Assembly (NCBI RefSeq): GCF_003867015.1
Contig: NZ_CP032548.1
Location: 1,493,001-1,557,000 of the forward strand
DNA: 64,000 nt
From: Tenacibaculum singaporense
GTDB taxonomy: Bacteria; Bacteroidota; Bacteroidia; Flavobacteriales; Flavobacteriaceae
Direction: 5' to 3'
Part shown: in pieces, positions 11,182-42,991 of the stretch
How the letters are laid out: each line of letters starts with the position of its first letter
Numbering within the stretch: position 1 is the first letter of the stretch
Translations under genes and position numbers: made by a program
The notes under the pieces: model-generated
What the model saw: the letters and a program-made list of their open reading frames with translations, nothing else
Database searches by the model: none
What the model was told of the DNA's origin: nothing

Positions 11182-11202
11182 CCTGACATTTAAAATGTTA
11201 GG
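11182..11202 (+). other. Hairpin in NRPS2-NRPS3 gap
   Basis: CCTGACAT pairs with ATGTTAGG around a 5-nt TTAAA loop (one G-T wobble). No T-run follows, so it is not a typical terminator. The alternative ATG at 11195 lies inside this hairpin, which favours translation starting at 11228. Role unknown: attenuation, RNA processing or chance. Confidence 0.35.
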
Positions 11203-11227
11203 TAAGAATGGTTGTAAAAAAATAAAA

Positions 11228-26200: not shown

Positions 26201-26389
26201 CTAATGAGATTTATTAATGTTTTAAATCAACAGTTTAATTTAAAAGTTAAACCAGTAGTATTATTTCAGTATCCTAATATTAAAGAACTTACACTTTATC
26301 TTTTCAAAAATGAAGAAGAAAATGAAGATTTACAAGATGAAAATATAGCACAAGAGTTTGAAGATATGCTGGATTTAATGGAAGAATAA
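11228..26389 (+). CDS. NRPS3: C-A(Thr)-T-C-A(Asn)-T-E-C-A-T-E-C-A(Tyr)-T
   Basis: Giant four-module NRPS, 5053 aa from the preferred ATG at 11228; an in-frame ATG at 11195 would add 11 residues, but 11228 places Met just before C motif C1 and follows an A-rich leader. Approximate residues: C1 1-430 (HHALIDR, non-canonical), A1 450-900, T1 935-1005, C2 1020-1450 (HHIISDG), A2 1475-1950, T2 1970-2040 (LGGDSIKS), E1 2055-2490 (HHLVVDG), C3 2515-2945 (HHILMDG, D-accepting type), A3 2965-3440, T3 3455-3525, E2 3540-3980, C4 4000-4430, A4 4450-4930, T4 4955-5025 (LGMNSIKL). Codes by eye: A1 DFWSVGMVH (Thr-like), A2 DLTKIGEVG (Asn), A3 DAEHIGEVT (unresolved), A4 DASTIAAIC (Tyr/Phe-like, Tyr favoured). 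E domains predict D-Asn and a second D-residue. The segments 16584-20623 and 21042-25081 are near-identical copies. Confidence 0.95.
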   Translation: MKILSSYHQQRLWFIDYFEKGDLYPNGPVYHNIPLIFSVKKQLSYEDIEKVVYQLLSKNEVLRTSFSRSEGTIFQEIHSINEVLIDKILKQEVNLLSKLKDLQELAFTFDNNFLIKCYFENLKDKTLIYFVIHHALIDRKSIGLIKNQLISILENSTSEDDNKIQFQHFSNWQNNLSKEDLESLLFYWRSKLNDLQVLYYPTDFEREQVHIYKAKSTLRLLDRQDISQFAHSHNLNTETLFLSAYKMALAKLTGLNDIVIGTLMDLRNDQIKELVGPIENLVVLRSKVDKNKTLEELLFLIEEGRKEAEKYKTMPFDKLVLELNPKKDMSRTALFDIFFNYEKEEAYERNFITESIVNKGFGKYDFNLLVTERNDFFHLGLTYNELYFQEETANSLLNLTIDILNRIVKNNKVILKEIPLVSGQEYNRAVGSTSIQEVSTDSIIDVFSKQVKMFGSRLALSSSLGEVTYEDLDNESTKLANYLINSCEVLPEDRVAIMIPKSIELIVAIIGVLKTGAAYVPIDINYPDERKNFMIEDSECRLVIDESFINKTKENINRESIVLSKSQISSSNLAYIIYTSGTTGKPKGVMIEHKNVLSLLTSCYEKFEFSENDTWTFFHSYCFDFSIWEIFGALLTGANVLILNNDEVRDHEVFVKLMNKYNSTVFSQTPSAFYNFIALNYKVPTLRYVVFGGEALHPIKLKKWRDENPEVSLVNMYGITETTVHVTFKELSNDDMDKATSNIGKPLSFANSYIVDQDGQIVPFGRPGELYVSGNGVARGYLNRPDQQEEKFLPCPFDEYSTMYRTGDLARFLPSGELEYLGRIDDQVKIRGYRIELDEIKKQIDSYKGIKESAITLVELSDGDKVIAAYVVLDKNESINSLKLHLGSKVPEYMVPAFFIEMDQIPINSNGKIDKVNLPSPFDSIEKNEKDIKEPITDVQIKLFNIWKNVLNTESFGIEHNFFELGGHSLKATRLISAIHKEFEVRLELKQIFANPTLEQQALLIEASDKNNFTEIKLLEQQEFYPVSDGQKRLWVLSQFEESSVAYNMASYLELDSDYDVSKFEKAIQLVLERHEILRTVFKTNSKGEVVQKILKKDDFEFKVARKDFSSFDNPYEEFLEFIRKDKNTPFNLSSGPLFRGCIIKFSNEKTVFYYNMHHIISDGWSIDILRRDVLAYYENLAKASELDLPSLKIQYKDYASWQQEQVRGVNYKKYRDFWLEKLKGELPLLDLPYQKNRPKIKTYNGGAYQGALNLEQTKKIKEFVQKNQSTLFVGLVSVWNLILHKYSGNNDIVIGTSVAGREHEDLKDQIGFFVNTIALRNYINPKQSYQDIFQQIDENTLEALENQMYPFDRLIDELDVEKSLDRSPVFDVMLVLQNTSEVEETREKEVLSETIEVSEEIISKFDLEIFFQERKDQLWFQINYNKDVYKNELIPQLIKHFKQVLDIVIFQPEIEIENIEYLSEEEETRLLESYNNTQAYFSESASVIDLFTKQVNENSDAIALKDFNGKSLNYRELDILSNKFAHYLIDNHEIKRGDLVGINIDRSVDTIVVILGILKIGAAYLPLDSNYPQSRIDYIQSNSKCKLSVDEIILVEFNQNKANFSESKQLLKPLATDLAYVIYTSGSTGKPKGVMIEHGALLNYLEWGQGYYLKELKEKTDFGLFTSLSFDLTITSLFLPLISGATLNVFSGNEIVSDSLKYYFESDIPCIKLTPAHIILLGSMEFNPGKKELIIVGGEALTNRHINILRKYYPKAKIINEYGPTEATVGCVVWNTINLEEKILIGKPIGNTAVYVLDDSLSLVAEGVLGELYISGSGLSRGYLHRPDLTTERFIPHPFKAGERLYKTGDVCRWLPGGVLEYVGRVDDQVKIRGHRIELGEIEGELDNIAGVESCVVSIKEVSGENVLVAYFVGEVEGITLRKELESRLPSYMVPHYYVSIDVIPLTSNGKVSRSSLPEVSDSDMLREEFLSARNEEEKVLLEVCESVLQRERISVLDNFYNLGGDSIKSIQVVSRLKALGYQLGVSDILSHPVLSDLSLYIKKEVTSQDQSVVKGDVVLSPIQQHFFKDSGIVNTNHYNQSVLLKSKLPIDKEFLGESISKLLTHHDALRMIFSKESSWSQYNREELDYSSIVQYYDLTGVEDLTSEITRVGEELQSSVNILTGDLVKVAHIATSEGDYLGIIIHHLVVDGVSWRILLEDLSSLYTNLVKGIKEELPLKTSSYQQWSKEQYKYSKETLVAKELSYWENLLAKELTTFPVDHTTKTPIVIDSKQGFRLSEVYTNLLEGEIHSHYSTNIQDVLLACLGVSLSKTFGVKETLLELEGHGRLSFTEDVDVTRTVGWFTSLYPYLLNVDSTEDLSNVLIATKDSLRNIPNNGMGYGMLHYLSEATLQEIHPTIQFNYLGTFGNEFKKEDGGLFSFSDISLGKDVSSEESSNIPLRISGAIVSGQLQLSVHYSSLQYEESTIKALVDSYESSLKNLISQLEETEGHHLTPSDLTYKSLSLPSLSTITKNYEVLDVYELSPLQQGMYYHWLQDVSSSLYFEQLSYKLSSESLDLAHAKKAYEILQSRHDVLRTGFTNDYNGIPLQIVYKEGDVNFKVAQVTEGSFDSCVKKLKEEDRLLGFDLSSRSQMRLTVLDYGLGDYEFIWSFHHILMDGWCISILLNEYYQILNSIQKGTPHNLNKPLAYSRYIEWLGQLDQSQSLSYWKDYLSSYDEIASLPYKGSGDIAQQGIRGSEDIVIESSLYESLSTLCKQHSITQNTFIQGVWGYLLSKYNNSQDVVFGSVVSGRPGSLSGVEHMVGLFINTIPVRVKYDSLTTGLDLLNQVHQDSISGQSHHYLNLSEVQSNSGLGMDLINHVLVFENFALQESIKQGESDLSLTITEADSFEQTHYDFGILVHPQGDSLHVRLEYDLGVYSSSRMSMIKSHFEQILTSFITAPDLRLSSLEYLTTEEKHEQLELFNATKMSYDLESTLVSLFKSQVLSTPDLIAVSYEEESLTYQELDELSNSFAHYLQSVHGVERGELVGLKLGRGLWMIVGILGVLKTGGAYVPIDTHYPESRKAYIIEDSGCNVCIDDVLLEGFKHTQEEYSKQDLAEQPLAEDLAYIIYTSGSTGKPKGVMIEHRNVVNLIISQTNKFKIDETEKVLQFSNISFDASVEQIFLAILNGSELVLVSREDILEPTAFEKIIIKKEITHLHATPSYLKALTLTSDTKLKRIIAGGEACSSELAKKLGEVAYFYNEYGPTETTVTSIEYHFENQYINNNIYPIGKPIGNTAVYVLDDSLSLVAEGVLGELYISGSGLSRGYLHRPDLTTERFIPHPFKAGERLYKTGDVCRWLPGGVLEYVGRIDDQVKIRGHRIELGEIEGELDTIAGVESCVVSIKEVSGEDVLVAYFVGDVEGIILRKELESRLPSYMVPHYYVSIDAIPLTSNGKVSRSSLPEVSDSDMLREEFLSARNEEEKVLLEVCESVLQRERISVLDNFYNLGGDSIKSIQVVSRLKALGYQLGVSDILSHPVLSDLSLYIKKEVRSQDQSVVKGDVVLSPIQQHFFKDSGIVNTNHYNQSVLLKSKLPIDKEFLGESISKLLTHHDALRMIFSKESSWSQYNREELDYSSIVQYYDLTGVEDLTSEITRVGEELQSSVNILTGDLVKVAHIATSEGDYLGIIIHHLVVDGVSWRILLEDLSSLYTNLVKGIKEELPLKTSSYQQWSKEQYKYSKETLVAKELSYWENLLAKELTTFPVDHTTKTPIVIDSKQGFRLSEVYTNLLEGEIHSHYSTNIQDVLLACLGVSLSKTFGVKETLLELEGHGRLSFTEDVDVTRTVGWFTSLYPYLLNVDSTEDLSNVLIATKDSLRNRPNNGMGYGMLHYLSEATLQEIHPTIQFNYLGTFGNEFKKEDGGLFSFSDISLGKDVSSEESSNIPLRISGAIVSGQLQLSVHYSSLQYEESTIKALVDSYESSLKNLISQLEETEGHHLTPSDLTYKSLSLPSLSTITKNYEVLDVYELSPLQQGMYYHWLQDVSSSLYFEQLSYKLSSESLDLAHAKKAYEILQSRHDVLRTGFTNDYNGIPLQIVYKEGDVNFKVAQVTEGSFDSCVKKLKEEDRLLGFDLSSRSQMRLTVLDYGLGDYEFIWSFHHILMDGWCISILLNEYYQILNSIQKGTPHNLNKPLAYSRYIEWLGQLDQSQSLSYWKDYLSSYDEIASLPYKGSGDIAQQGIRGSEDIVIESSLYESLSTLCKQHSITQNTFIQGVWGYLLSKYNNSQDVVFGSVVSGRPGSLSGVEHMVGLFINTIPVRVKYDSLTTGLDLLNQVHQDSISGQSHHYLNLSEVQSNSGLGMDLINHVLVFENFALQESIKQGESDLSLTITEADSFEQTHYDFGILVHPQGDSLHVRLEYDLGVYSSSRMSMIKSHFEQILTSFITAPDLRLSSLEYLTTEEKHEQLELFNATKMSYDLESTLVSLFKSQVLSTPDLIAVSYEEESLTYQELDELSNSFAHYLQSVHGVERGELVGLKLGRGLWMIVGILGVLKTGGAYVPIDIHYPESRKAYIIEDSGCNVCIDDVLLEDFKHTQEEYSKQDLAEQPFAEDLAYIIYTSGSTGKPKGVMIEHRNVVNTILSQIEIFNLKDCNSSLQFASFSFDASVSEIFISLLSGTSLHIATDEIRENPKNLEEFIIDRSIDIATIPPVYLKYMDVNSLEGMVSLITAGESPDYNKVKEYLEMKTGDYFNAYGPTEASICGTVLKIGKETGLNPRNLSIGKPIHNVNMYVVDNEGCIVPKEVVGEICISGYGVARGYLNKPELTKEKFIETLYAKDGLLYKTGDLGYWTSEGNIVFIGRKDDQVKINGYRIELEEIAAKLREKSDIKQCYITVFNNENEDKELIAYVISNNKQKSSELRKYLVDRLPTYMIPSYFIQIDELPITTNGKIDKKSLPLPDAKNTVIGVEYVAPQNGNEEDLIKILSTQLGIDGNKIGVLDNFFDLGMNSIKLMRFINVLNQQFNLKVKPVVLFQYPNIKELTLYLFKNEEENEDLQDENIAQEFEDMLDLMEE
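16584..20623 (+). repeat. 4.04-kb intragenic tandem duplication, copy 1
   Basis: Copy 1 spans the C-terminal part of A2, T2, E1, C3 and the N-terminal part of A3 up to just after the TSGSTGKPKG motif. It aligns with copy 2 at a constant offset of 4458 bp. I count about a dozen amino-acid differences over ~1345 residues. The nucleotide changes cluster in the first ~0.8 kb and the last ~0.2 kb; between about 17405 and 20395 I see only one (ATA/AGA, Ile/Arg). Borders are read by eye and may be off by a few bases. Confidence 0.92.
21042..25081 (+). repeat. 4.04-kb intragenic tandem duplication, copy 2
   Basis: Copy 2 covers the C-terminal part of A3, T3, E2, C4 and the N-terminal part of A4. It is separated from copy 1 by a unique 418-bp segment (20624-21041) encoding the substrate-binding core of A3. 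After 25081 the sequence diverges abruptly into the A4 core. Both borders therefore fall inside A domains, not in interdomain linkers. Confidence 0.92.
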
Positions 26390-26398
26390 AAAGAAATC

Positions 26399-29300
26399 AT
26401 GGAAAAACAGAGACAAATTAATAAAAAGGACATTGCTGTAATAGGTATTTCTTGTGAATTCCCACAGTCTAAGAATATATCTGAGTTCTGGGAAAACTTA
26501 GTTGAAGGGAATGAGTTACTTCATTTTTATTCTGATAATGAGTTGGAAGAATTTGGTATTTCAGACGCTACAATTAAAAATAATGAGTTTATAAAAGTAA
26601 AAGCTGAAATAGAAGGAGTAGGTGGTTTTGATTACACTTTTTTTGGATACACAAAAGAAGAGGCAAGCTGTATGGATCCGCAAACTAGAATGTTACATCA
26701 ATTAACATGGACGGCATTAGAAGATGCTGGATGTAATATTGATACTTATAAAGGTAAAATAGGAATGTATACATCTATTTCTGACAATTTAAATTGGCAG
26801 GTACATTCTATGTTACATCCCAATTCTAAAGTAAATTCTTTTTACCAATCTCAACTGTCAAATAAAAATTTCGCTCACACTTTAGTGTCGTACAATTTTG
26901 ATTTTAAAGGACCTAGCTTGTTAATTGACACGGCTTGTTCAAGTTCGTTGGTTTCATTACATGTTGCTTGCAGAAGTCTATTATTAAAAGAGTGTAATGT
27001 AGCAATGGCAGCTGGTATTAGCCTTGATAGTACAAAAAACAAGGGCTACTTTTATCAAGAAGGAATGATTTCTTCTAAAGATGGACATTGCAGACCTTTT
27101 GATCAGAATTCTTCTGGAACTGTTGGAGGAAATGGAGGAGCTGTTGTAGTTTTAAAAAGATTAGAAGAAGCCATAAATGATAGAGATAATATTTATGCCA
27201 TAATAAAATCATCAGCTGTAAATAATGATGGTAGAGAAAAGATTGGTTATACGGCTCCAAGTGTTAAAGGACAATCCACATGTATAAAGTTGGCTCATCG
27301 AATAGCTAATATACCTTTAGAATCAATTTCATATATAGAAACACATGGTACAGCAACAAAGTTGGGTGATCCAATAGAAATAGAAGCTCTTAATAAAGCG
27401 TTTAATTATAATACAGAACATAAATGTGCTATTGGTTCGGTTAAGTCCAATATGGGACATTTAGATGCTGCAGCGGGAATAGCAGGCTTGTTAAAAACAA
27501 CATTGGCTCTGAAGAATAAAAAAATTCCTAAATCTTTACATTTTAATACCCCAAACCAAGAAATTAATTTTAATGAAGGGCCATTTTATGTAAATGATCA
27601 GTTAAAGAATTGGGAGTCAGATAATGAATATCCATTAAGAGCTGGAGTAAGTAGTTTTGGAATTGGAGGTACTAATGTACATGTTGTTATGGAGGAACCT
27701 CCAGTTTTATCTAAAATAAATAAAGAAAAAGATTTTTATATAGTTCCGTTTTCTGCAAAAACGAAAAAGTCTCTTTTATCATATCAAAGAAAAATATCAG
27801 AGTTTTTAAAGGAAGGAAAAGGGGATTTGAAAGATTTAGCTTATACTTTAAGTATAGGAAGAAAACCCTTTACTTATAGAAATACGATAGTAGCAAAGGA
27901 TTCTACGTCTGTTCTTAAAATGTTAGAGCAAACAGAGGTCATTGAAAATTCTATTACAAAGGCAAAACAGAGACCAATCATTTTTCTATTTTCTGGGCAA
28001 GGGAGTCAGTATTTTGGAATGGCAGAAAGGCTTTATAAAGAAAGTTCTTATTTCAAAAGTATAATTAACAGTGGGCTAAATTATTTAGAAGCTTTGACTG
28101 GAGAAAGCTATAAAGAAATACTAGGGTATGAATCAAAAGAATCATTCGATAAAAATTTAATAAACGAAACAAAATACACGCAGCCACTCTTGTTTTTGGT
28201 AGAGTATGCACTAGCTAAGCAAATGATATTGTTTGGAATTGAGCCAACAGCAATGATTGGTCATAGCTTAGGAGAATATGTTGCAGCATGTATCAGTGAG
28301 GTTTTTACATTAGAAGATGCATTAAGAATTATTGTAAAAAGAGCTGAGTTGATGAATGCTTTGCCGAAAGGAGTAATGTTAGCTGTAGGAGAATCTTCAG
28401 ATAAAATAGAAGAATCTTTACCAAAAGAATTGAGCATTGCAGCAATAAACACGATAACTTCCTGTGTTGTTTCTGGAGAAGAAAAAAATATTGAAGATTA
28501 TGCTACCTATTTGGAAAGTATAAATGTACCTCACAAAAAATTAAAAACATCTCATGCATTTCACTCAAAAATGATGAACCCTATTTTAGATGTTTTTGGA
28601 GAGTTTTTAAAAGAGGTGAAGTTTTCTAGTCCAAAATACAAAATCGTATCTAACTTGACAGGTAAAATAATCTCTTCAAATGAGATGATATCACCAGAAT
28701 ATTGGTGTCGTCATCTAAGAGAGACTGTGTGTTTTTATGACGGGGTTACAACTATTTTAAGTAATTATAAAGAATCAGTATTCATTGAATTAGGTCCAGG
28801 CAATACTTTAGGAATGTTTAGTAAGCAACATCCAAATTTTAACTCAGGCTCGGAATGTACAATATCAATGATTTCTCATCCTAAAAATATTGAAAGGGAA
28901 GTGAGTTTATTTGAATCTTCTCTAGCCAAACTGTGGGCTTTAGGATGTTCAGTTAATTGGGAAGAGTATTATAGTGATGATAAAAGAAATAAAATTTCGG
29001 CACCTACATATTGCTTTGATGAAAAGAATTTTGAAAGCAGTGTAAACCCACTAGAAGAAATAAAAGGAAAGGTAGAACTTTTTCCAGGAATGAAAAGGAA
29101 TATATCTGAGTGGTTTTATATTCCAAATTGGAAAAGAAGTACTTTTTTAAATTTAGAAGTTGCCCAAGATAAATCTAAAAAATATGTGGCTTTCATAAAT
29201 GATGAACCACTAATTGAAGATGTGGTTAAAATTTTAGAAAATGAAGGGAATCAGGTTGTTAAAGTTACACAAGGAGAAGAGTTTTTAAAATATGATGATT

Positions 29301-30844
29301 ATAATTATTGTATAAGCTTTCAAAACAAGGAGAATTATTTAGCCCTTTATGAAGAGCTAAAAAGTAATTTTAATAGAATAGATCATTTTATTTATAGTTG
29401 GAAAACAAAAGATGAAATAACCGTAACTGATTATTTTATTCATCTTATTGAGGTGGGTAAACTAACAATAAACTTAGCAGGAGAAATTGGTAATAAGGTT
29501 ACTTTTTTATTAGAATATGGTAATAATATTTATGGAGATGAAATATTAGACTCCAAAGCAGTAATATCTAATAGTTTACTACAGGTATTAGAACAGGAAA
29601 ACCCTAAAATTAAAGTTTCTAGTATTGATATTTTTAACAACCAGTTTAATGTAAGTGCTACAAGTATAATTAATGAAATTAAAGGTGATAAAAGCTCAAT
29701 TAACATAGCATATAGGAAAGACCAAAGATGGGAATTGTTCTATGATAATGTAAAGCTACCTAAGCATTCAAATGAAGAGACTTTAAAAGAGAATGGACTT
29801 TATATAATTACTGGAGGACTAGGAAAGCTAGGAGGAATATTAACAAGGTATTTAAGTGAAAAATATAATGGAACAATTATCTTATTAGGAAGAACAAACA
29901 TTGAAGGTTACGAGGTAGGAAAGAATCCAAAAGTAGATAGTAAAATTAGCTTGTTAAAAAATTTACAGGAAGAATTTGAAAATATTTATTACTACCAAGT
30001 TGATGTATCAGATAACGATTCATTACACAAGGTATTTGAAAACATAACTAATGAGCATGGAGATATAACAGGTGTTATTCATGCAGCAGGTGTAATAGAG
30101 CATGATAGTTTTAAAACTTTTGAGAATATTTCACAAAGTGATGTTGAACAGCAATTCACTCCAAAAGTTTTAGGAGTAAATAATATATATTCATTAAGTA
30201 AGCAATTTCCTATAGATTTTGTCTGGATTGCATCTAGTTTATCTTCAATTTTAGGAGGACTTACTTTTACTTCTTATGCAAGTGCAAATAGGTATTTAGA
30301 CGCGTTTATTCAACAAAAAAGAAATAAACTTACTAACTGGTTTTCTGTTAATCTAGATGGCTTAGTAGAGGAGAGAATAAGTGATGCTGAAATGATAGAA
30401 GTTTTCGAAAAATCTTTTATGATAGGGAAAGAACCTCAGTTAATTACATCTGTTAGAGAAATTAAAGCAATAAATGAAATTGAGAAGGAAGAAGAATTTC
30501 ATAATGAAAATTTAGAAGATGACTTTATTACTGAAAGGCCAGATATTAGTACAGCATATCAAGAGCCAGAAAATGAGATACAAAGAAAAATATGCTCTAT
30601 TTGGGAAACCTTTTTCGGATATAAGAAAATAGGGGTTTTGGATGACTTTTTCGATTTAGGAGGAGACTCTTTAAAGGCAATGACTTTATTAAAAAAAATA
30701 CAAAAGGCTTTTTCGGTAGAAATAAAATTACAAGAGTTTTATACAAAATCAACTGTTAAAGATATTGCTGAACAAGTTGAAATTCTTAAAAAAGTAGAGT
30801 TGATGCAAAACCAAAGTAAGAAAAAAAACACAATAAAAATATAG
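26399..30844 (+). CDS. Type I PKS module: KS-AT-KR-ACP
   Basis: 1481-aa single-module polyketide synthase that adds one malonate unit to the peptide from NRPS3 and reduces the beta-ketone. KS residues ~10-435 with Cys180 (DTACSSS), His316 (ETHGTAT) and His354 (NMGHLDAAAG). AT ~525-820 with GHSLGEY (Ser623) and HAFH at 719-722, the malonyl-CoA signature. A degenerate KR structural half precedes KR ~1130-1320 (TGGLGKLGG cofactor motif; Ser1280, Tyr1293, Asn1297). ACP ~1395-1465 with LGGDSLKA, Ser1424. There is no DH, ER or MT, so the product should be a beta-hydroxy acyl group. The canonical LDD stereo motif of B-type KRs is not seen (VIEHD instead), so hydroxyl configuration is left open. It starts 9 bp after NRPS3 and ends 2 bp before NRPS4, whose TubC-like docking domain probably receives it. 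If A4 loads Tyr, the unit formed would be a statine-like 4-amino-3-hydroxy-5-arylpentanoate (inference). Confidence 0.95.
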   Translation: MEKQRQINKKDIAVIGISCEFPQSKNISEFWENLVEGNELLHFYSDNELEEFGISDATIKNNEFIKVKAEIEGVGGFDYTFFGYTKEEASCMDPQTRMLHQLTWTALEDAGCNIDTYKGKIGMYTSISDNLNWQVHSMLHPNSKVNSFYQSQLSNKNFAHTLVSYNFDFKGPSLLIDTACSSSLVSLHVACRSLLLKECNVAMAAGISLDSTKNKGYFYQEGMISSKDGHCRPFDQNSSGTVGGNGGAVVVLKRLEEAINDRDNIYAIIKSSAVNNDGREKIGYTAPSVKGQSTCIKLAHRIANIPLESISYIETHGTATKLGDPIEIEALNKAFNYNTEHKCAIGSVKSNMGHLDAAAGIAGLLKTTLALKNKKIPKSLHFNTPNQEINFNEGPFYVNDQLKNWESDNEYPLRAGVSSFGIGGTNVHVVMEEPPVLSKINKEKDFYIVPFSAKTKKSLLSYQRKISEFLKEGKGDLKDLAYTLSIGRKPFTYRNTIVAKDSTSVLKMLEQTEVIENSITKAKQRPIIFLFSGQGSQYFGMAERLYKESSYFKSIINSGLNYLEALTGESYKEILGYESKESFDKNLINETKYTQPLLFLVEYALAKQMILFGIEPTAMIGHSLGEYVAACISEVFTLEDALRIIVKRAELMNALPKGVMLAVGESSDKIEESLPKELSIAAINTITSCVVSGEEKNIEDYATYLESINVPHKKLKTSHAFHSKMMNPILDVFGEFLKEVKFSSPKYKIVSNLTGKIISSNEMISPEYWCRHLRETVCFYDGVTTILSNYKESVFIELGPGNTLGMFSKQHPNFNSGSECTISMISHPKNIEREVSLFESSLAKLWALGCSVNWEEYYSDDKRNKISAPTYCFDEKNFESSVNPLEEIKGKVELFPGMKRNISEWFYIPNWKRSTFLNLEVAQDKSKKYVAFINDEPLIEDVVKILENEGNQVVKVTQGEEFLKYDDYNYCISFQNKENYLALYEELKSNFNRIDHFIYSWKTKDEITVTDYFIHLIEVGKLTINLAGEIGNKVTFLLEYGNNIYGDEILDSKAVISNSLLQVLEQENPKIKVSSIDIFNNQFNVSATSIINEIKGDKSSINIAYRKDQRWELFYDNVKLPKHSNEETLKENGLYIITGGLGKLGGILTRYLSEKYNGTIILLGRTNIEGYEVGKNPKVDSKISLLKNLQEEFENIYYYQVDVSDNDSLHKVFENITNEHGDITGVIHAAGVIEHDSFKTFENISQSDVEQQFTPKVLGVNNIYSLSKQFPIDFVWIASSLSSILGGLTFTSYASANRYLDAFIQQKRNKLTNWFSVNLDGLVEERISDAEMIEVFEKSFMIGKEPQLITSVREIKAINEIEKEEEFHNENLEDDFITERPDISTAYQEPENEIQRKICSIWETFFGYKKIGVLDDFFDLGGDSLKAMTLLKKIQKAFSVEIKLQEFYTKSTVKDIAEQVEILKKVELMQNQSKKKNTIKI

Positions 30845-30846
30845 TT

Positions 30847-33800
30847 ATGATTGATTTGATAAATGAACTAGAAGAAAATAAAATCCAAATATCTTTAGAT
30901 GGAGAGGATTTAGAGTTAAGTTTTGATAGTCAAGATATTAGTTTGGAGTTGGTTGATAAGGTAAAGACAAATAAAAAAGAATTATTGTCTTTTCTGAAGA
31001 GAAAAAATAAGACCAAACTATACGATGATATTCCAGTAATAGAAAGTAAAGAGTATTATCCAATTTCACATAACCAAAAAAGAATATGGATTCTAAATCA
31101 ATTTGAGGGAGGTTCTGTTGTTTGGAATATGCCTGTAACTATTAAGTTAAAAGGAGAGTATTCTGTAGAAATTTTTCAAGAAGCATTAGAAAATATTATT
31201 GAGAGACATGAAATTCTTAGAACTGTATTTGTAAAGAAAGAGGACGGTGAGGTATATCAAAAAGTCTTAACCTCTAAAGAGTTTAATTTTCATTTGAACT
31301 ATTTAGATTTAAAAGGGAGAGATAATGCAATAATTAAAGCGGAGGAATACATAAATAAAGATTCATCTTTAACGTTTAATTTAGAGAAAGGTCCTTTGCT
31401 GAGATGTTCTTTGTTAAGAATTGACAATAATGAGTATTTATTTTACTTGAATATACATCATATAATTAGTGATGGTTGGTCATTAGAGGTTCTTCAAAGA
31501 GATATCATGGCTATGTATAAAGCAAGTGAAAAAAAGGAGGTAATAAATTTACCAAATTTACCTATTCAGTATAAAGATTTTACTTCATGGCAGTTAAATC
31601 AATTAAATAATGCCATAGTAAGTAAAGAGGCAAAGTATTGGAAGAATGAGTTAGTAACACCACTACCAAGTCTAAATTTACCTACCCTTAAAAAGCGTCC
31701 TAAAATATTAACCTATAATGGAGGGCATTATAGAACTTATCTTGGAAAAGAAACGACCAAGAAATTAAGGGAGTTTTGTAAGGAAAATGGAGGAAGCTTA
31801 TTCATGTTGTTACTGGCTAATTGGAATGTTTTATTTCATAGGTATTTGGGGCAAAAAGATATTATAATAGGAACCTTAGTTGCTGGAAGAGATCATCCTG
31901 ATTTAGAAAATCAAGTAGGGTATTATGTTAATACATTAGCACTTAGGAATAAAATAGAACCAGAGAGTAGTTTCCTTTCTTTTTATCAAAAGGTGAAAGA
32001 TAAAACCATAAATGCGTTTGAACATCAAATGTACCCTTTTGACAATTTATTAGAAGAGTTAGATGTAGAAAGAGATGTTAGTAGAACGCCTATTTTTGAT
32101 GTTCTATTGGTGTTGCATAACATAAAAGAAGGAGCAAAAGAGTATGAGAATCTCAATAAAAACCAAATAGAAGATATCAGCAATTTGGGAAAGACTTTTT
32201 CTAAATTTCCTTTAGAGATTGAATTTAAGGAACTAGGAGATTATATATCATTTGATATTAAATTCAATTCAGATATATATGAAGAGAGTTTTATTAAAAA
32301 CTGTATGATTCATTATAAAAAACTTATAAATGAACTTTTATTTGCTCCCCAAAAAAAAATAAATAAAGTAGAGTTTCTAACAGAAGAAGAACGTTATAGA
32401 TTATTGCATACTTTCAATAGTAATAAAGGAGACTACCCTAAAAATAAGAGAGTCATTGATTTTTTCAAAGAGCAAGTTTTTAAAACGCCAAATAAAGTTT
32501 CTGTAGTTTATGAAAAGACAAAATTAACCTTTCAAGAATTAGATAAATTATCAGATGAGTATGCTACTATTCTTTCTGGAGAGTACGGTTTAAAAACTGG
32601 GCAAAATATAGTAGTAAGTCTACCCCATGACTGTGATTTAATGGCAATATTATTAGCCGTAATGAAAATTGGAGCTATTTATATTCCTGTAGACCCAAAA
32701 TCACCAAATGAAAGAGTTAATTATATTTCGGAGTTAAGCTCCAGTGTAAATATAATTGACAAAACTTTACTGAATGAAATTAAAAGAAAGCAGGTTGTTT
32801 TAGAGGAAGTAAAGACTAATTGGGATAAAGAGGTTGATAGTGAAATTGAGTTTATAATTTATACTTCGGGATCAACCGGTGTTCCCAAAGGGGTTTTAAT
32901 AAAAACATCTAGTGTAAATAATAGATTGAACTGGATGTGGAAAAAATATCCTTTTGAGAAAGATGAAGTTTGTTGTGCCAAAACATCAATAAGCTTTGTA
33001 GATCATATTTGGGAGTTTTTTGGTCCTTTGTTAAAAGGAATCCCATTAGTATTTTATAGGAAAGAGGATATAATTGATATCCCCTCATTTATAGAAAGTT
33101 TAGGAGAAGAAAAAATAACAAGAATAGTTTTAGTTCCTTCACTTCTAAGAGCAATATTGGAGTTTCCAGAGTTATGTAGAGTTAAATTAGAAAATTTAAG
33201 AGTCTGTATTAGTAGTGGAGAAACCCTGAAAAAAAGAGATGTATCAAGGTTTTATAAAGTATTAAAAAGAAATAATGTTAGATTAATAAATATTTATGGA
33301 TCTACTGAAGTAACTGCTGATGCAACTTATTATGATACCTATAATGATTATTTTACAGAGTCTTCCTTTAAACTTTTCAATACTACAATTAGAGATTCTG
33401 TTAATGAATTAATTGAGCATCAGGATAGTAGTTTGAAAATAGTATCGAGTTCGTTAAACGAATTATTAGAGAATGATAATTTTCAGAAGGTTGATTTTAG
33501 CAAAGGGATAAATGAAGAAAAATATATTGAGTTTCTAAAAAAAGATATTTTACCTAATGTAGTAAATGTAGCTTCACCTAATTACATAGGGCATATGACA
33601 GGGCCTGTTCCTGAATTTATTAGAGAAATTAATGCATTAATAGTTGCTCTAAATCAGAATCAGGTAAAAATAGAAACATCTTTGGTAGCTACGCTTATTG
33701 AAAATCAAGTAATAGGAACATTTCATAAGTTAGTTTTCGAAAAAGGACCTTCTTTTTATGAAGAATATGTTCAAAGTCCAGAAGAGGCTTTAGGAGTTAT

Positions 33801-36800
33801 TACTAATGGAGGAACAATGTCTAATATAATGGCCATGAGCTATGCTTTAAATAATTCGTTAAAACCTAAAGAAGGTTTTAGAGGAATATCAGAAGAAGGG
33901 CTAATGGAAGCAATGAAAGCATATGAATATGAGAAAGTTGTAATAATTGGTTCTGAATGGTGTCATTATTCATTTGGCAAAGCGTTAAAAATATTAGGTT
34001 TAGGTAAAAAATCTTTTGTGCCCATTAGTTTTGAAGATAAGACTTATGAAGAACTTAAAGATGAACTTAGAAGTAAAATTAAGCGATTACGAGAAGAGAG
34101 AACATTAATACTAAGTATTATTGGGGTTGCAGGAACGACTGAATCTGGAAATATCGATCCTTTAAAAATTTTAGGAGAAATAGCTGCCGAATTTAATATT
34201 CATTATCATGTTGATGCTGCATTTGGAGGAAGTTTTTTAATGGATGATTCATTAAAATTAAAATTTGAAGGAATTCAAATGGCTGATACCGTTTCAATCT
34301 GCGCACATAAACAACTTTACATTCCTATAGGGCTAAGTCTATGTTTGTTTAAAGATATTGATTTTGCTTCATTTTCAGAAAATAACACACATTATCAAGC
34401 AAGAAAAGGGAGTTATGATTTAGGAAAATATACGGTTGAAGGTTCAAGGAATTTTATGAGTTTAACACTTCATGCAATTTTTCATGTATTAGGAAAAGAA
34501 GGTTTTGCAGAAGTAGTAAAGCACAATTATAATACTGCTCAGTACTTTGCTGAATTAGTTGAAAAAAGCGTTGATTTTGAATTAGTATTACAGCCAGATT
34601 TAAATATTGTATTATATAGATACATACCAGAAAAGTATAGAGGAAAATTAAAGTTTACAGAAAAAGAAATAGAAGAACTAAATGAATTAAACGAACAAAT
34701 TCAGAATAAACAATTTGAGGAAGGAAATACTTTTGTTTCGTATACTAAAATTAAGAATAAAGAAAATTCAAATAGACATCTTGTTTTCCGAACGGTATTT
34801 ATGAATCCGTTTACAAATGAAGGTAACTTAGAAGCAGTTTTAGATGAACAAAGACAAATAGCTTTTTCAATAGAAAATAAAGCTGAGTTTGAAGAAATAG
34901 ATGAAAGAGGAACAGTTCCAATTGGTATTCCTATAGAGAATGTAAAGGTTTTTATATTAGATGAGTATCTGAATATATTACCTATTGGTGTTGTGGGAGA
35001 AATATGTATCAGCGGAGACTGTGTTTCAGAAGGATATATTAATTTATCAAAAGAAGAATCATCTAGGTTTATAGATAGTCCGTTTGAAAAGGAAGAAAAA
35101 TTATTTAAAACAGGTGATTTAGGAAGAAGACTAGAAGATGGAAATATTGAGTTTATTTCTAGAAAGGATGATCAAGTAAAAATAAGAGGAAATAGGGTAG
35201 AATTAGGAGAGGTTGAAAATAATTTACAAAAGCATAAAAAAGTAAAAAATGCTGTAGTTGTCCCAAAGGAGAGAGACAATGGGGAAGTCTTTTTGGTGGG
35301 GTATTTTGAATCGTCGATAGAAATTTCATCGGTTGAGTTAAGAAATTTCATGAAAGAATTTCTTCCAGACTACATGATACCACAATATTTTGTAAAGCTT
35401 GATAAAATTCCTTTAACTACAAGTGGGAAGATAAATAAACAAGAGTTACCGAATGTAGATTATAATACTTTTCAGCAGGTAAATAATTATGTAGCGCCAA
35501 GAAATGATATAGAGATAGAATTGGTAGATGTATGGAAAAGAGTACTTAAGAAGGGAAAAGTTAGTGTTTATGATGACTTTTTTGTCTTAGGAGGTCATAG
35601 TTTAAAAGCAACAAACTTAATAAACGAATACCAGAAAATTTTTAATGTTAAGTTGGGAATTAATGAGATATTTTTAAATACTACACTTTACTCTCATATC
35701 AGCTTATTAAATAAAGCACCAAAAAGTAATTATTTAAAAATTGAAAAGGCAATAGAAAAAGAGAGTTATGCATTATCAGGATCTCAAAAGAGATTATGGA
35801 TTGCAAGTCAGTTTTCTAATAGTTCGGCTTCTTACAATATGCCTTTTTCTATTGAACTAAATGAGGTTTCTGATATTGAAATATTTAGAAAGGCAATAGT
35901 AGCTTTAGTCGAAAGGCATGAAATATTGAGAACAATTTTTAAAGAGAACGAGCAAGGTGAACTGTCTCAATGGGTGTTGCCAAAAGAAACTTTATCATTT
36001 GAAATTCCATGTTTTGACTATTCTGACCAAGATTATGCTGTTGATAAAGTAAAGGAATTAATAAAAGAAGATTCTTATCAGGATTTTGATTTAGAAAAGG
36101 GACCATTATTTAGAGTAATGTTGTTCAAAATATATGATAATAAATACATCTTTTACTACAATATGCACCATATTATTGGGGATGGTGTTTCTTTAGAAAT
36201 TATAAAACGAGACGTTTTATCTTATTATAACGCTTTTATAAAGAATGAAGTCCCTCAATTGCCAGATTTGACCGTTCAATATAAAGATTATGCAGAATGG
36301 CAAAACTCTAAAAATAAAAGCGAAGAGTTTAAGGAGTATAGTAAATTTTGGAGACAAAAATTGAATGGTAAACTCACAAGATTAAAATTCCCTGGAGAAA
36401 AATCGAGACCAAATACAATAACACATGATGGTAGGAATTTGTATTCATATATTGATTCAGAGTTAACAAATAATCTGAAGAAGATATGTAAGGTTAATGG
36501 AGCTACCTTATATGTTGGTGTTTTAACAGTATGGAAAATACTTTTCTTAAAATATACTAACCAAACAGATATTATTATAGGTACTCCAGTATCAGGTAGA
36601 TATCATGATGATTTGAAAGATCAAATAGGATGTTATATCAATACTATTGTTTTAAGAGATAGATTAAATTTTGAAGAAACATTCATTGAGACTTTTGAGA
36701 AAATTAAAAAGAATGTTCTTGAAAGTTTTGAAAATCAAGAATACCCATTTGAGAAGATTGTTGAAGATTTAGAAGTTAGTAGACTGACTGATAGAAATGC

Positions 36801-37143
36801 AATTTTTGATGTAATGTTTTCATTTCATAACACAGCAGAAAATATAAAGGAAAAGAAAGTTTATGACACAGAAAATATTGAGGATAGAGGGAATGTTCAA
36901 GTTAAATTAGATCTTTTAATAAATTTTGCAGAAGAAGGCAACTTTTTCTATATGGATATAGATTATAATACCTCAATTTTTGAATCATCTTTTGTAAGGA
37001 AAATGATGAGAGATTATAAGTATTTATTAAGAAAATTAATAAACGAACCAAATAAAAAGCTGAGAGATATTGATTTTGAGGAAAAACAAAGAAATCAATT
37101 AAAACAAAAGAGACAACAAAAACTAAAAAACTTGTTAAAATAA
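30847..37143 (+). CDS. NRPS4: docking-C-A(beta-Ala) interrupted by PLP decarboxylase-T-C
   Basis: 2098 aa. Order: TubC-type docking domain 1-55, C 65-495 (HHIISDG), A N-part 505-830, inserted PLP-dependent decarboxylase ~831-1355, A C-part 1355-1555, T 1565-1635 (LGGHSLKA), C 1655-2080 (HHIIGDG), then a Lys/Gln-rich tail. The A4 motif is FVDHIWE, with Val at position 235 and Asp at 236. The eye-read code VDWVISIAD matches the known beta-alanine code VDWVISLAD. A5 is YGSTE at nt ~33297; A6 (GEICISG), A7 (FKTGDLG), A8 (DDQVKIRG) and the A10 lysine (SGKINK) resume after the insert, so the A domain is complete around it. The frame is continuous through both junctions. It ends on a C domain, while NRPS5 begins with a degenerate C, so the NRPS4 terminal C probably serves NRPS5. 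It overlaps nothing and lies 2 bp after the PKS. Confidence 0.95.
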   Translation: MIDLINELEENKIQISLDGEDLELSFDSQDISLELVDKVKTNKKELLSFLKRKNKTKLYDDIPVIESKEYYPISHNQKRIWILNQFEGGSVVWNMPVTIKLKGEYSVEIFQEALENIIERHEILRTVFVKKEDGEVYQKVLTSKEFNFHLNYLDLKGRDNAIIKAEEYINKDSSLTFNLEKGPLLRCSLLRIDNNEYLFYLNIHHIISDGWSLEVLQRDIMAMYKASEKKEVINLPNLPIQYKDFTSWQLNQLNNAIVSKEAKYWKNELVTPLPSLNLPTLKKRPKILTYNGGHYRTYLGKETTKKLREFCKENGGSLFMLLLANWNVLFHRYLGQKDIIIGTLVAGRDHPDLENQVGYYVNTLALRNKIEPESSFLSFYQKVKDKTINAFEHQMYPFDNLLEELDVERDVSRTPIFDVLLVLHNIKEGAKEYENLNKNQIEDISNLGKTFSKFPLEIEFKELGDYISFDIKFNSDIYEESFIKNCMIHYKKLINELLFAPQKKINKVEFLTEEERYRLLHTFNSNKGDYPKNKRVIDFFKEQVFKTPNKVSVVYEKTKLTFQELDKLSDEYATILSGEYGLKTGQNIVVSLPHDCDLMAILLAVMKIGAIYIPVDPKSPNERVNYISELSSSVNIIDKTLLNEIKRKQVVLEEVKTNWDKEVDSEIEFIIYTSGSTGVPKGVLIKTSSVNNRLNWMWKKYPFEKDEVCCAKTSISFVDHIWEFFGPLLKGIPLVFYRKEDIIDIPSFIESLGEEKITRIVLVPSLLRAILEFPELCRVKLENLRVCISSGETLKKRDVSRFYKVLKRNNVRLINIYGSTEVTADATYYDTYNDYFTESSFKLFNTTIRDSVNELIEHQDSSLKIVSSSLNELLENDNFQKVDFSKGINEEKYIEFLKKDILPNVVNVASPNYIGHMTGPVPEFIREINALIVALNQNQVKIETSLVATLIENQVIGTFHKLVFEKGPSFYEEYVQSPEEALGVITNGGTMSNIMAMSYALNNSLKPKEGFRGISEEGLMEAMKAYEYEKVVIIGSEWCHYSFGKALKILGLGKKSFVPISFEDKTYEELKDELRSKIKRLREERTLILSIIGVAGTTESGNIDPLKILGEIAAEFNIHYHVDAAFGGSFLMDDSLKLKFEGIQMADTVSICAHKQLYIPIGLSLCLFKDIDFASFSENNTHYQARKGSYDLGKYTVEGSRNFMSLTLHAIFHVLGKEGFAEVVKHNYNTAQYFAELVEKSVDFELVLQPDLNIVLYRYIPEKYRGKLKFTEKEIEELNELNEQIQNKQFEEGNTFVSYTKIKNKENSNRHLVFRTVFMNPFTNEGNLEAVLDEQRQIAFSIENKAEFEEIDERGTVPIGIPIENVKVFILDEYLNILPIGVVGEICISGDCVSEGYINLSKEESSRFIDSPFEKEEKLFKTGDLGRRLEDGNIEFISRKDDQVKIRGNRVELGEVENNLQKHKKVKNAVVVPKERDNGEVFLVGYFESSIEISSVELRNFMKEFLPDYMIPQYFVKLDKIPLTTSGKINKQELPNVDYNTFQQVNNYVAPRNDIEIELVDVWKRVLKKGKVSVYDDFFVLGGHSLKATNLINEYQKIFNVKLGINEIFLNTTLYSHISLLNKAPKSNYLKIEKAIEKESYALSGSQKRLWIASQFSNSSASYNMPFSIELNEVSDIEIFRKAIVALVERHEILRTIFKENEQGELSQWVLPKETLSFEIPCFDYSDQDYAVDKVKELIKEDSYQDFDLEKGPLFRVMLFKIYDNKYIFYYNMHHIIGDGVSLEIIKRDVLSYYNAFIKNEVPQLPDLTVQYKDYAEWQNSKNKSEEFKEYSKFWRQKLNGKLTRLKFPGEKSRPNTITHDGRNLYSYIDSELTNNLKKICKVNGATLYVGVLTVWKILFLKYTNQTDIIIGTPVSGRYHDDLKDQIGCYINTIVLRDRLNFEETFIETFEKIKKNVLESFENQEYPFEKIVEDLEVSRLTDRNAIFDVMFSFHNTAENIKEKKVYDTENIEDRGNVQVKLDLLINFAEEGNFFYMDIDYNTSIFESSFVRKMMRDYKYLLRKLINEPNKKLRDIDFEEKQRNQLKQKRQQKLKNLLK
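33340..34910 (+). other. PanP-like aspartate 1-decarboxylase domain inside the NRPS4 A domain
   Basis: About 525 residues of a group II PLP-dependent decarboxylase embedded between A5 and A6 of NRPS4, near the stand-alone length of PanP (~545). Landmarks: 'NYIGHMTGPVPEF' and 'ALNQNQVKIETS' as in PanP-type enzymes, TNGGTMSN (phosphate binding), GVAGTTESGNIDP, HVDAAFGG with Asp1123 for the pyridine nitrogen, and CAHKQLYIP with Lys1155 as PLP Schiff-base lysine. PanP decarboxylates L-aspartate to beta-alanine, the very substrate predicted for the host A domain. Glutamate decarboxylase-type activity is the main alternative. Family assignment is firm; substrate is inferred from resemblance recalled from memory plus the A-domain code. 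Borders are approximate. Confidence 0.9.
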
Positions 37144-37146
37144 GCC

Positions 37147-38142
37147 ATGAGAGATCGATTGAATAAGTTAAAAAATATTAGTGCTAAAAGTATAAATGTT
37201 GAGGAAGAAAATATTATTGAAAGGGTAAAAGATACTACTCAAGGGTTTCCTTTAGTGATTGAAACACAAAATGCAAATCTTAATTTGAAATCTTGGATAC
37301 ACAACAATAAAGAAAAGTTTGAGCAAGATATAATAAACTATGGGGGAGTTTTGTTTAGAGGTTTTGAAATTAACTCAGTAGATAAGTTTCAAGACTTAAT
37401 GAATGTTTTTCCAAATGAGTTATTAGAGTATAAGTTAAGGTCATCTCCAAGACACTCTATATCTGGTAATGTATATGTGTCTACTACTTATCCTAATGAT
37501 CAAATAATAAATATGCATTCAGAAAGTTCGTATGCACCAGTTCATCCATCAAGAATAATTTTTTGCTGTGTAACCCCTGCGTTAAAAAATGGAGAAACTC
37601 CTATCGCTGATACAAGGAAAGTATTAAAAAATTTATCTAAAGAAACAGTTGAGTTATTTAAAGAAAAAGGAATAAAGTATAGAAGAAACCTTAATGGGGT
37701 TCTTGGGTTAACTTGGCAGGAAGTTTTTCAAACAAATGAAAAAAAAGATGTAGAAGAAGAGTGTCTAAACAATGGAATGCAATTTTGCTGGAAAGGAGAC
37801 AATGAACTTGTAATTAGTTGGACAAAAAAAGCGATTTGGGAACATCCCATTACAAATGAAGAAATATGGTTTAATCATGGCTTATTTTTTAATAAATACA
37901 TGTTAAATAAAGGAGTATTGAGTTCAATTTCTGATGATGAACAACTACCTAACAATACTTTTTTTGGAGACGGTACAGAAATATCTAAAGAAATTATAGA
38001 AGAAATTAATAATGCATTTATAAAGTCAACTGTTTCTTTTCCGTGGGAAAAAGGCGATGTACTTTTTTTAGATAATTTATTAATGGCTCATGGAAGAAAT
38101 ACTTACGAAGGAGAAAGAAAAGTTATAGTATCAATGTATTAA
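37147..38142 (+). CDS. TauD/SyrP-like Fe(II)/2-oxoglutarate dioxygenase
   Basis: 331 aa, TauD/TfdA-fold oxygenase. The metal triad reads as His124-x-Glu126 (NMHSESSY) and His315 (AHGRNTYEGER), with Arg324 suited to 2-oxoglutarate binding. The HxE form and the segment 'PSRIIFCCVTPALKNGETPIAD' resemble SyrP-type enzymes, which beta-hydroxylate an amino acid (Asp in syringomycin) bound to an NRPS carrier. It starts 3 bp after NRPS4 and is followed by NRPS5, predicted to load Asn, so Asn or Asp on this line is a plausible target (inference). Other possible targets are Tyr or the aliphatic residues. Cytoplasmic, no signal peptide. Confidence 0.88.
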   Translation: MRDRLNKLKNISAKSINVEEENIIERVKDTTQGFPLVIETQNANLNLKSWIHNNKEKFEQDIINYGGVLFRGFEINSVDKFQDLMNVFPNELLEYKLRSSPRHSISGNVYVSTTYPNDQIINMHSESSYAPVHPSRIIFCCVTPALKNGETPIADTRKVLKNLSKETVELFKEKGIKYRRNLNGVLGLTWQEVFQTNEKKDVEEECLNNGMQFCWKGDNELVISWTKKAIWEHPITNEEIWFNHGLFFNKYMLNKGVLSSISDDEQLPNNTFFGDGTEISKEIIEEINNAFIKSTVSFPWEKGDVLFLDNLLMAHGRNTYEGERKVIVSMY

Positions 38143-41395: not shown

Positions 41396-42991
41396 ATGAA
41401 TACTAAATATTATTTAAAGTCAAATGTAGCAATTGAAGCTCTTATAGATAGATGGTACGCTTGGTCACATTTAATGTATCCTCCTACAGCAGGGTTAAAC
41501 ATTAAAGAAAGACATTTAAAAATAATGGAATCATACATAAAAAACCCAAGAATTCATGCAGCAGCAGTAAAAAAAACTGAAATGTTGGGAGGACCATTTA
41601 TAGATTATGATGGAGGTAGAGTAGAAGAAATAGAAGAGTTGTATAAAGAAACACTAAACAAAAGAGCTAGTCTTTTAGAACTTAACACTGCATTTGAAGA
41701 ATTAAATGAAATGTTAAAAAGTGAAGCCATTGGTTACTCTTTAGATCCATTATATGAAAAGGTTCCAGATCTATTAAAAGGATATGTTGAGTTGTATTAT
41801 GATTTAAATAATAGAGCAAATTTTAGAATCTATGAATCTCTTTTTTATAGTAGTGAATATTATGATGAAAGTACACAATCTATTTCTCTTCAGTTGGTAG
41901 AGTCTGATAATGCTAGATCTTTTGTTTTAAGTACTCCAAGACTAGACGATGAAAATTTAATTCATCTTCAAATAGCATTTAAAGAGAAGGTTATAGATGA
42001 ACTTTTTAAGATGAAGAAGATACCTGGAGACTATGATTATATAAAAAATGCTTTAGGAATAAAACCAGAACAAGAAGAGCTTTTTAAAAGTTTTTTTACA
42101 ACGGAACCACCTAAAAACTTCAAAAAATATACAGGTTCAGGAATTCGAACTAGATATTTTGGACATGCAAGTGTTTTAGTAGAAACTAATGAAATCTCGA
42201 TTTTAGTTGATCCAGTTATTAGTTATGATGGTTACGAAACAGACATAAGCAGGTATACAGTTAATGATTTACCAGAAATGATAGACTATGTACTTATCAC
42301 TCATAACCATCAAGACCATATTTTATTTGAAACTTTATTACAATTAAGACATAGAATAAAAAATATAGTTGTTCCAAGTGGAAGTAAAGGAAATATTCAA
42401 GACCCTAGTTTAAGATTAATGTTAAATAAGATAGGTTTTTTTAATGTTATTGAGTTAGATGAAATGGAGTCTATAGAGTTAGATAGGTGTAGTATTACAG
42501 GTTTACCTTTTTTAGGAGAGCATTGTGATTTAGATATCAGAAGTAAACTTTGTTTTCACGTTGGTCTTCATAATAATTTTAATGTTCTTTTTGTAGCTGA
42601 TTCATGTAATATAGAACCAAAAATATATGAAAGAGTTCAAAAAGTTATCGGTAATGTAGATGTATTGTTTTTAGGAATGGAATGTGATGGTGCGCCTTTA
42701 TCATGGGTGTATGGACCATTATTATATGATAAATTAGAAAGAGATAAAGATCTTTCTAGACGTTTGGCAGGAAGTGATTACGAACAAGGTATGTCATTAA
42801 TTAACATATTTAATCCTAAGAATGTTTTTGTCTATGCTATGGGATTAGAACCATGGCTTGAATTTATAAGCTCTATCAGATATACAGACGAATCTAGACC
42901 AATAAAAGAATCAAACAAACTCGTGGCTAAGTGTATTGAAATGGGGAAAGATGCTGAAAGATTGTTTGGAGAAAAAACAATAGAATACTAA
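41396..42991 (+). CDS. CmlA-type diiron beta-hydroxylase (metallo-beta-lactamase fold)
   Basis: 531 aa, essentially the length of CmlA of chloramphenicol biosynthesis (532 aa), which beta-hydroxylates an aminoacyl group on an NRPS carrier domain. An N-terminal ~240-residue all-new domain precedes a metallo-beta-lactamase fold. Metal ligands seen: His303, His305, Asp307, His308 in HNHQDH, Glu375 in LGEHCD and Asp402 in VADSC. These correspond in order and spacing to the diiron ligands known for CmlA. The presence of the Glu ligand and the CmlA-length N-terminus argues against an ordinary MBL hydrolase. Located 19 bp after NRPS5, so carrier-bound Asn is the first candidate; Tyr of NRPS3 is an alternative. 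Two chemically different beta-hydroxylases flank one A-T protein here. Confidence 0.88.
   Translation: MNTKYYLKSNVAIEALIDRWYAWSHLMYPPTAGLNIKERHLKIMESYIKNPRIHAAAVKKTEMLGGPFIDYDGGRVEEIEELYKETLNKRASLLELNTAFEELNEMLKSEAIGYSLDPLYEKVPDLLKGYVELYYDLNNRANFRIYESLFYSSEYYDESTQSISLQLVESDNARSFVLSTPRLDDENLIHLQIAFKEKVIDELFKMKKIPGDYDYIKNALGIKPEQEELFKSFFTTEPPKNFKKYTGSGIRTRYFGHASVLVETNEISILVDPVISYDGYETDISRYTVNDLPEMIDYVLITHNHQDHILFETLLQLRHRIKNIVVPSGSKGNIQDPSLRLMLNKIGFFNVIELDEMESIELDRCSITGLPFLGEHCDLDIRSKLCFHVGLHNNFNVLFVADSCNIEPKIYERVQKVIGNVDVLFLGMECDGAPLSWVYGPLLYDKLERDKDLSRRLAGSDYEQGMSLINIFNPKNVFVYAMGLEPWLEFISSIRYTDESRPIKESNKLVAKCIEMGKDAERLFGEKTIEY

Follow-up and report, generated by a model that had tools for sequence, protein, structure and literature searches.

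We analysed a 64,000-nucleotide stretch of the Tenacibaculum singaporense genome (contig NZ_CP032548.1, positions 1,493,001–1,557,000; hereafter the window), in which one open reading frame (ORF), NRPS4, encodes a nonribosomal peptide synthetase (NRPS) whose adenylation (A) domain contains a complete pyridoxal phosphate (PLP)-dependent decarboxylase. The ORF encodes 2,098 amino acids without internal stops. Behind a docking-like N terminus come a condensation (C) domain, an A domain split in two by the PLP decarboxylase, a thiolation (T) domain and a second C domain (Table 1). Pfam recovers Condensation in two stretches (best 69–519), AMP-binding in two stretches (best 540–830), Pyridoxal_deC at 898–1259, AMP-binding_C at 1455–1528 and PP-binding at 1559–1614, while the TubC_N match at residues 3–51 (23.9 bits) stays below its cut-off of 26. 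HHxxxDG is present in both C domains and GGHSL in the T domain. A polyketide synthase (PKS) module lies just upstream and would hand its chain to NRPS4.

The site of the insertion was read from the translation. Core motif A5 (NIYGSTEVTADAT, residues 815–827) is followed by YYDTYN (828–833) and the A domain picks up again at GTVPIGIP (1355), which bounds the insert at approximately residues 834–1354. A3, A5, A7, A8 and A10 were located by script and the remaining A motifs by eye; both A halves are in frame, their core motifs are kept and a separate catalytic domain lies between A5 and A6. The A5–A6 spacing is 544 residues, compared to 24–29 in eight of the nine other A domains of the window that the script located (the ninth is normal by eye, and a tenth, in ORF 7861–11109, was missed by the script). 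An original prediction, made from the sequence alone, had placed a full group II PLP decarboxylase in frame between A5 and A6 with the A motifs intact after it, and Pfam, motif reading and the uninterrupted ORF all agree.

Table 1 Features of NRPS4 and the module upstream of it, with positions in the window
Feature	Position	Strand	Evidence
NRPS4: docking-like region, C, A with inserted decarboxylase, T, C	30847..37143	+	ORF, Pfam
TubC_N-like docking domain, residues 3–51, below curated cut-off	30853..30999	+	23.9 bits versus 26
Condensation domain 1, residues 69–519, HHIISDG at 204	31051..32403	+	Pfam, motif
A domain, N-terminal part, residues 540–833: YTSGSTG, SFVDHIW, NIYGSTE; all nine pocket positions	32464..33345	+	Pfam, motifs
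A5 and pocket positions 322/330/331 (I, A, D), immediately ahead of the insert	33289..33327	+	Motif; GrsA register
Inserted PanP-like group II PLP decarboxylase, residues ~834–1354	33346..34908	+	Pfam, NCBIfam, model, motifs
His1040 (WCHYSF), 65/65 inserts	33964..33966	+	Alignment; presumed PLP stacking (family knowledge)
Asp1123 (HVDAAFGG), 65/65 inserts	34213..34215	+	Alignment; presumed pairing with PLP ring nitrogen (family knowledge)
Lys1155 (CAHKQ), 65/65 inserts	34309..34311	+	Alignment; presumed PLP Schiff base (family knowledge)
Arg1315 (FRTVFMNP), 65/65 inserts	34789..34791	+	Alignment; presumed alpha-carboxylate contact (family knowledge)
A domain, C-terminal part, residues 1355–1535: PIGIPIEN, TGDLGRR, DQVKIRG, SGKINK	34909..35451	+	Pfam, NCBIfam, motifs
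T domain, residues 1559–1614, GGHSL	35521..35688	+	Pfam, motif
Condensation domain 2, residues ~1636–2080 (ends approximate), HHIIGDG at 1774	35752..37086	+	Pfam, NCBIfam, motif
PKS module just upstream (ketosynthase, acyltransferase, ketoreductase, acyl carrier protein), would deliver chain to NRPS4	26399..30844	+	Pfam

The original prediction had proposed looking for the same A5–A6 insertion elsewhere. A database search scored on the insert alone, covering 7,990 candidates among proteins of 0.55–1.75 times the length of NRPS4, returned 66 matches, 64 of which carry the insert between A5 and A6. Named sources include Tenacibaculum, Kordia, Dokdonia, Flavobacterium, Aquimarina, Chryseobacterium, Pedobacter, Chitinophaga and Flavitalea, with further matches from a cyanobacterial metagenome-assembled genome (MAG) and Candidatus Electrothrix. 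The two remaining matches, P0066 and P0067, were rejected as interrupted A domains: both are large proteins with a related decarboxylase that precedes an A-type C-terminal stretch, and the record of P0067 names the alga Haptolina brevifila as its source. A separate scan of named genomes, in which the best 80 of 551 loci were analysed, found the inserted form in nine loci (T. gallaicum, Kordia periserrulae, Chitinophaga, Flavitalea, Hyella patelloides and MAGs of Saprospiraceae, Acaryochloris, Richelia and Fibrobacter) and the free-standing form in 71. An assembly chimera or frameshift artefact in NRPS4 is ruled out, because the same arrangement occurs in the separately assembled T. gallaicum (insert 94% identical) and in the 64 database matches. 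By eye, base composition shows no discontinuity across the insert.

The arrangement is rare among sampled family and phylum genomes. Since few candidates were scored per genome, prevalences are lower bounds: at E ≤ 1e-60, insert relatives occur in at least 2 of 397 family genomes (the T. singaporense genome and one other) and at least 1 of 395 phylum genomes (T. singaporense itself), and an A-domain search of the class at E ≤ 1e-55 gave at least 1 of 395, again only T. singaporense. With few candidates scored per genome, this sampling yielded no uninterrupted neighbours.

The insert scored 132.5 bits against Pfam PF00282 (Pyridoxal_deC; cut-off 27) and has the invariant Lys, Asp, His and Arg of group II decarboxylases. 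Its best NCBIfam decarboxylase model was TIGR03799 (PanP), with 463.5 bits over residues 877–1338 and profile positions 55–522 of 522, and the runner-up, diaminobutyrate decarboxylase, reached only 120.2 bits. The predicted PanP likeness therefore held for the family. It did not extend to equivalog rank, since the score (467.5 bits in the genome search) falls below the curated 606.1, for which reason we call the insert PanP-like and not PanP. Further motifs are TNGGTMSN at 986 and GTTESGNIDP at 1096. Lys1155, Asp1123, His1040 and Arg1315, whose catalytic roles we assume from family knowledge, are kept in all 65 inserts (NRPS4 and the 64 matches, some of them near-copies) and in all 25 free-standing relatives left of 119 after thinning.

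In a predicted model of residues 530–1547 (mean predicted local distance difference test, pLDDT, 84.9; predicted template modelling score, pTM, 0.53), the A fold runs uninterrupted over the insert (484 residues aligned with EntF at 2.2 Å; model range 1–1014), and the insert resembles the group II decarboxylases DfoJ (TMt 0.87–0.89) and GADL1 (TMt 0.84–0.86). Group II decarboxylases form dimers, with their active sites lying where the subunits meet, so NRPS4 would be expected to dimerise via its inserted decarboxylase.

Aligned via A4 and A5 to the GrsA register, the NRPS4 pocket reads V-D-W-V-I-S-I-A-D, identical to the original reading. It agrees at eight of nine positions with VDWVISLAD, which we take to be the beta-alanine code, the one difference being a conservative L to I. 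Asp236, Ser301 and Asp331 are present in all 65 interrupted A domains (most commonly as VDWVISIAD, 21 times, or VDWVTSIAD, 15 times), and none of the 65 has Arg, Lys or His at any of the nine positions. The same pairing of decarboxylase insert and beta-alanine-type pocket recurs across phyla. It is highly improbable, in our view, that the insert acts on another amino acid (glutamate, 2,4-diaminobutyrate or cysteine sulfinate) or is an inactive dimerisation module. Its place below the PanP cut-off would fit such a role, as would the nearest solved structures by sequence, which include several decarboxylases for other amino acids; against this stand the lead of PanP over the next decarboxylase family (343 bits), the invariant catalytic residues and the retention of Asp236, Ser301 and Asp331 throughout.

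Taken together with the pocket, the PanP-like insert makes it probable that free L-aspartate would first be converted to beta-alanine by PLP decarboxylation within the insert, and that the surrounding A domain would then adenylate the beta-alanine and load its own T domain. The reverse order would be a carrier-bound route, in which the A domain activates the side-chain carboxylate of L-aspartate to give beta-aspartyl on the T domain and the insert then removes the alpha-carboxylate, leaving beta-alanyl-S-T. We regard this as unlikely. VinN and VinO of vicenistatin, an adenylating enzyme and a PLP decarboxylase, reportedly form a carrier-bound beta-amino acid in a manner similar to AfcQ and AfcP. 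For the latter pair, passages of PMC12186527 describe AfcQ as activating L-aspartate, not beta-alanine, and AfcP as decarboxylating AfcK-loaded aspartate to give beta-alanine on the carrier protein, and inserted methyltransferases act only after T-domain loading according to passages of PMC11355689. However, AfcQ-type pockets are modelled, in the same passages of PMC12186527, with an arginine for the alpha-carboxylate (Arg311; Arg331 in VinN), and by that description none of the 65 interrupted domains has a basic pocket residue of the VinN/AfcQ type. The original prediction left this route unweighed; as far as sequence can tell, the pocket argues against it.

Uninterrupted relatives bear on the same question. 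Among 293 A domains located by script, in a set drawn by similarity to the NRPS4 A domain and its neighbours, 54 were interrupted (all with Asp236), 67 were uninterrupted with Asp236 and 172 were uninterrupted without it. No interruption was therefore seen among the 172 domains lacking Asp236, 167 of which have Asp235 (Fisher p = 2.5e-25 for the association of Asp236 and interruption, kinship ignored). Because the set was drawn by similarity, these counts express an association and not a rate; the script also overlooked 13 of the 65 proteins known to be interrupted, all of which were restored for the A-domain tree. All 67 uninterrupted Asp236-type domains likewise have Ser301 and Asp331 and no basic pocket residue. 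Three further A domains seemed interrupted when the motif pattern missed TGDV; two of these proved normal, and in P0247, the third, no decarboxylase of this kind breaks the domain.

Two trees were used to follow the inserted state, both from quick searches with Shimodaira–Hasegawa-like approximate likelihood ratio test (SH-aLRT) support only, and both with long branches and many unresolved forks. In the insert tree (65 inserts, 25 free-standing relatives and five others) the state changed seven times, all seven changes being forced by well-supported branches, and in the A-domain tree, built from Asp236-type domains (67 interrupted, 67 not), parsimony counted 14 changes, at least five of them forced. 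For example, the uninterrupted P0237 (a Puia record; VDWVISIAD) groups with interrupted P0010 and P0016 (SH-aLRT 96). Two other uninterrupted domains pair with interrupted ones of the same code, P0227 with P0022 (VDCVISIAD, support 82) and P0252 with P0030 (VDWVTSIAD, support 80). On these trees, repeated gains or losses of the insert left the pocket type unchanged, and this constancy makes it most likely that one substrate is served whether or not the insert is present. This too counts against aspartate loading ahead of decarboxylation, and we prefer the decarboxylation-first order because none of the 65 pockets has a basic residue and uninterrupted relatives share the pocket type.

Free-standing homologues were examined for A domains within the locus, up to 10 kb on each side of the decarboxylase. 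Eight of 71 had one, and in five of the eight this included an Asp236-type domain that is itself uninterrupted. These trans cases comprise Chitinophaga sp. YR573 (VDWVTSIAD, ~3.3 kb from the decarboxylase), Xenorhabdus mauleonii (VDTVISFGD), X. hominickii (IDTVVSFGD), Burkholderia sp. SRS-46 (VDWVTSLAD) and Fischerella muscicola (VDWIISLAN). Of the three remaining loci, one has a different type of A domain and two sit on contigs of ~9 and ~10 kb; some free-standing rows come from short contigs, and a few could be cut-off pieces. When 13 genomes that have free-standing homologues were searched in full, 9 had an NRPS4-like A domain at E ≤ 1e-20. Six of the 13 had been chosen for having no NRPS-like ORF near the homologue: four of these had no NRPS4-like A domain, and the best A domains in the two with matches (DVWHVSFIE and DVWHVSLID) are not of the Asp236 type. 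Free-standing homologues near Asp236-type pockets are equally compatible with a free and with a carrier-bound substrate.

P0068 is a free-standing PanP-like decarboxylase with a docking-like N terminus (TubC_N 21.9 bits, below the cut-off of 26), possibly a docked trans version. L066, from a record titled Akkermansia muciniphila MAG, has a PanP-like gene near an A domain with the code DISHGTL on a 45-kb contig, and the organism name may be a binning error.

The free-standing homologues also bear on whether supply and use are coupled at all. Beta-alanine might simply be released to the cytosol, with the location of the decarboxylase in the A domain reflecting evolutionary fixing of two co-inherited genes, which we consider quite unlikely. 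The occurrence of free-standing homologues near uninterrupted Asp236-type A domains implies that fusion is not essential, the insert has come and gone repeatedly, and T. singaporense has a stand-alone pyruvoyl PanD (166.6 bits), so that a free beta-alanine pool probably exists and could feed the A domain without the insert. On the other hand, the A5–A6 site is used in all 65 cases, which fall into each of the two main branches of the A-domain tree; this suggests more than random fusion, even if a single ancient insertion with later losses would produce equal constancy.

Several of these points weigh against supply of beta-alanine by the insert ahead of adenylation: PanD, the score below the PanP cut-off, and the published precedents for chemistry on the carrier. 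Others concern the pocket. A text search of the open-licence literature found no paper giving VDWVISLAD as the beta-alanine code; some uninterrupted relatives differ from their interrupted neighbours at variable pocket positions; and the Fischerella domain has Asn instead of Asp at 331. At position 239, one clade of interrupted domains has Ala or Ser and a few others have Cys or Gly instead of Trp, so the substrate may differ there. In the structural model, the pTM of 0.53 leaves the relative placement of the decarboxylase and adenylation sites, and the distance between them, unfixed. Of the original beta-alanine reading, the pocket type and its conserved pairing with the insert held up, while L-aspartate as the substrate of the insert is a prediction, albeit a likely one. 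Its further suggestion, that the A domain would do without a free beta-alanine pool, is likewise a proposal, to be set beside PanD and the low pTM. For decarboxylation within the insert followed by adenylation in the host domain, beta-alanine may pass straight from one site to the other, but this is not required, as a local supply of beta-alanine would suffice. We see an even chance that the broader picture is also right, namely a self-supplying A domain that makes an unusual amino acid within its own fold and passes it straight to the adenylation pocket, an A5–A6 cassette inserted and removed many times across phyla, and an NRPS module that is an obligate dimer.

A domains interrupted by other enzymes are already known. 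An a6–a7 insert site is reportedly among those surveyed by Lundy 2020. Passages of PMC11355689 describe methyltransferase, oxidase or ketoreductase inserts, as the original prediction had stated, typically at a8–a9 and sometimes at a2–a3, and A4–A5 is also named as an insert site in a passage of PMC8097286. The methyltransferase inserts of TioS, TioN and KtzH and the oxidase inserts of EpoB and IndC tailor a residue and mostly lie at a8–a9 or a2–a3 (passages of PMC8795117 and PMC11355689), whereas the NRPS4 insert is a PLP decarboxylase at A5–A6 that would make the substrate before activation. Consistent with the original prediction, which knew of no such case, we found neither a decarboxylase insert in an A domain nor an A5–A6 insert site in the open-licence literature among the matches listed, and the available passages of PMC9248904, PMC8795117, PMC11355689, PMC8949500, PMC8097286, PMC10127204, PMC12568646, PMC6737921 and PMC12186527 report no decarboxylase within an A domain.

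The separate functions have parallels too. PanP of Vibrio and relatives (TIGR03799) is the best-scoring family, with 41–43% identity between the insert and Vibrio proteins named PanP and the catalytic residues kept; unlike PanP, the insert sits within an NRPS, scores below the curated cut-off and shows no tie to pantothenate supply. In AFC-BC11 biosynthesis, AfcQ, AfcK and AfcP likewise combine an adenylating enzyme and a PLP decarboxylase to give a carrier-bound beta-amino acid from L-aspartate (passages of PMC12186527), but these, like VinN and VinO, are separate proteins, and the AfcQ type activates L-aspartate first via an arginine-bearing pocket, with decarboxylation on the carrier. Decarboxylases that prepare an NRPS substrate include BmdA in bacillamide biosynthesis (passage of PMC8795117) and DtxS4 in destruxin biosynthesis, a stand-alone aspartate decarboxylase supplying beta-alanine, which a passage of PMC6737921 confirms as the original prediction gave it. 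BmdA and DtxS4 act in trans, whereas in NRPS4 the decarboxylase is embedded in the very domain that would consume the beta-alanine it makes.

Other features of the window include a giant NRPS (11195–26389) in which two successive modules are identical in 1,217 of 1,225 residues, ungapped, from A6 onward, which points to internal duplication or gene conversion in the very recent past. A KamA-type radical SAM aminomutase-like protein (6516–7832; matches below threshold), a TauD-type dioxygenase encoded immediately downstream of NRPS4 (37147–38142) and a CmlA-type diiron hydroxylase (41396–42991) suggest further unusual residues. A TonB-type outer-membrane receptor (47803–50283) and an ABC transporter (51284–52921), both encoded within the cluster, hint that its product is taken up or exported. 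After the NRPS genes lie two adjoining ORFs (59563–60942 and 60975–62348; 459 and 457 amino acids) with no Pfam match.

Interrupted A domains being already known, the new principle would be an insert that makes the substrate rather than modifying the loaded residue: in the passages cited, A-domain inserts modify an amino acid that has already been selected, and the NRPS4 insert would create the selected one. If this is true, natural A5–A6 insertion would offer an entry point for engineering self-supplied NRPS modules, genome mining could use the arrangement as a signature for beta-alanine residues, and substrate channelling in an NRPS could be tested directly. Supply and selection of a building block would then form one portable unit, which would explain its coming and going between clusters.

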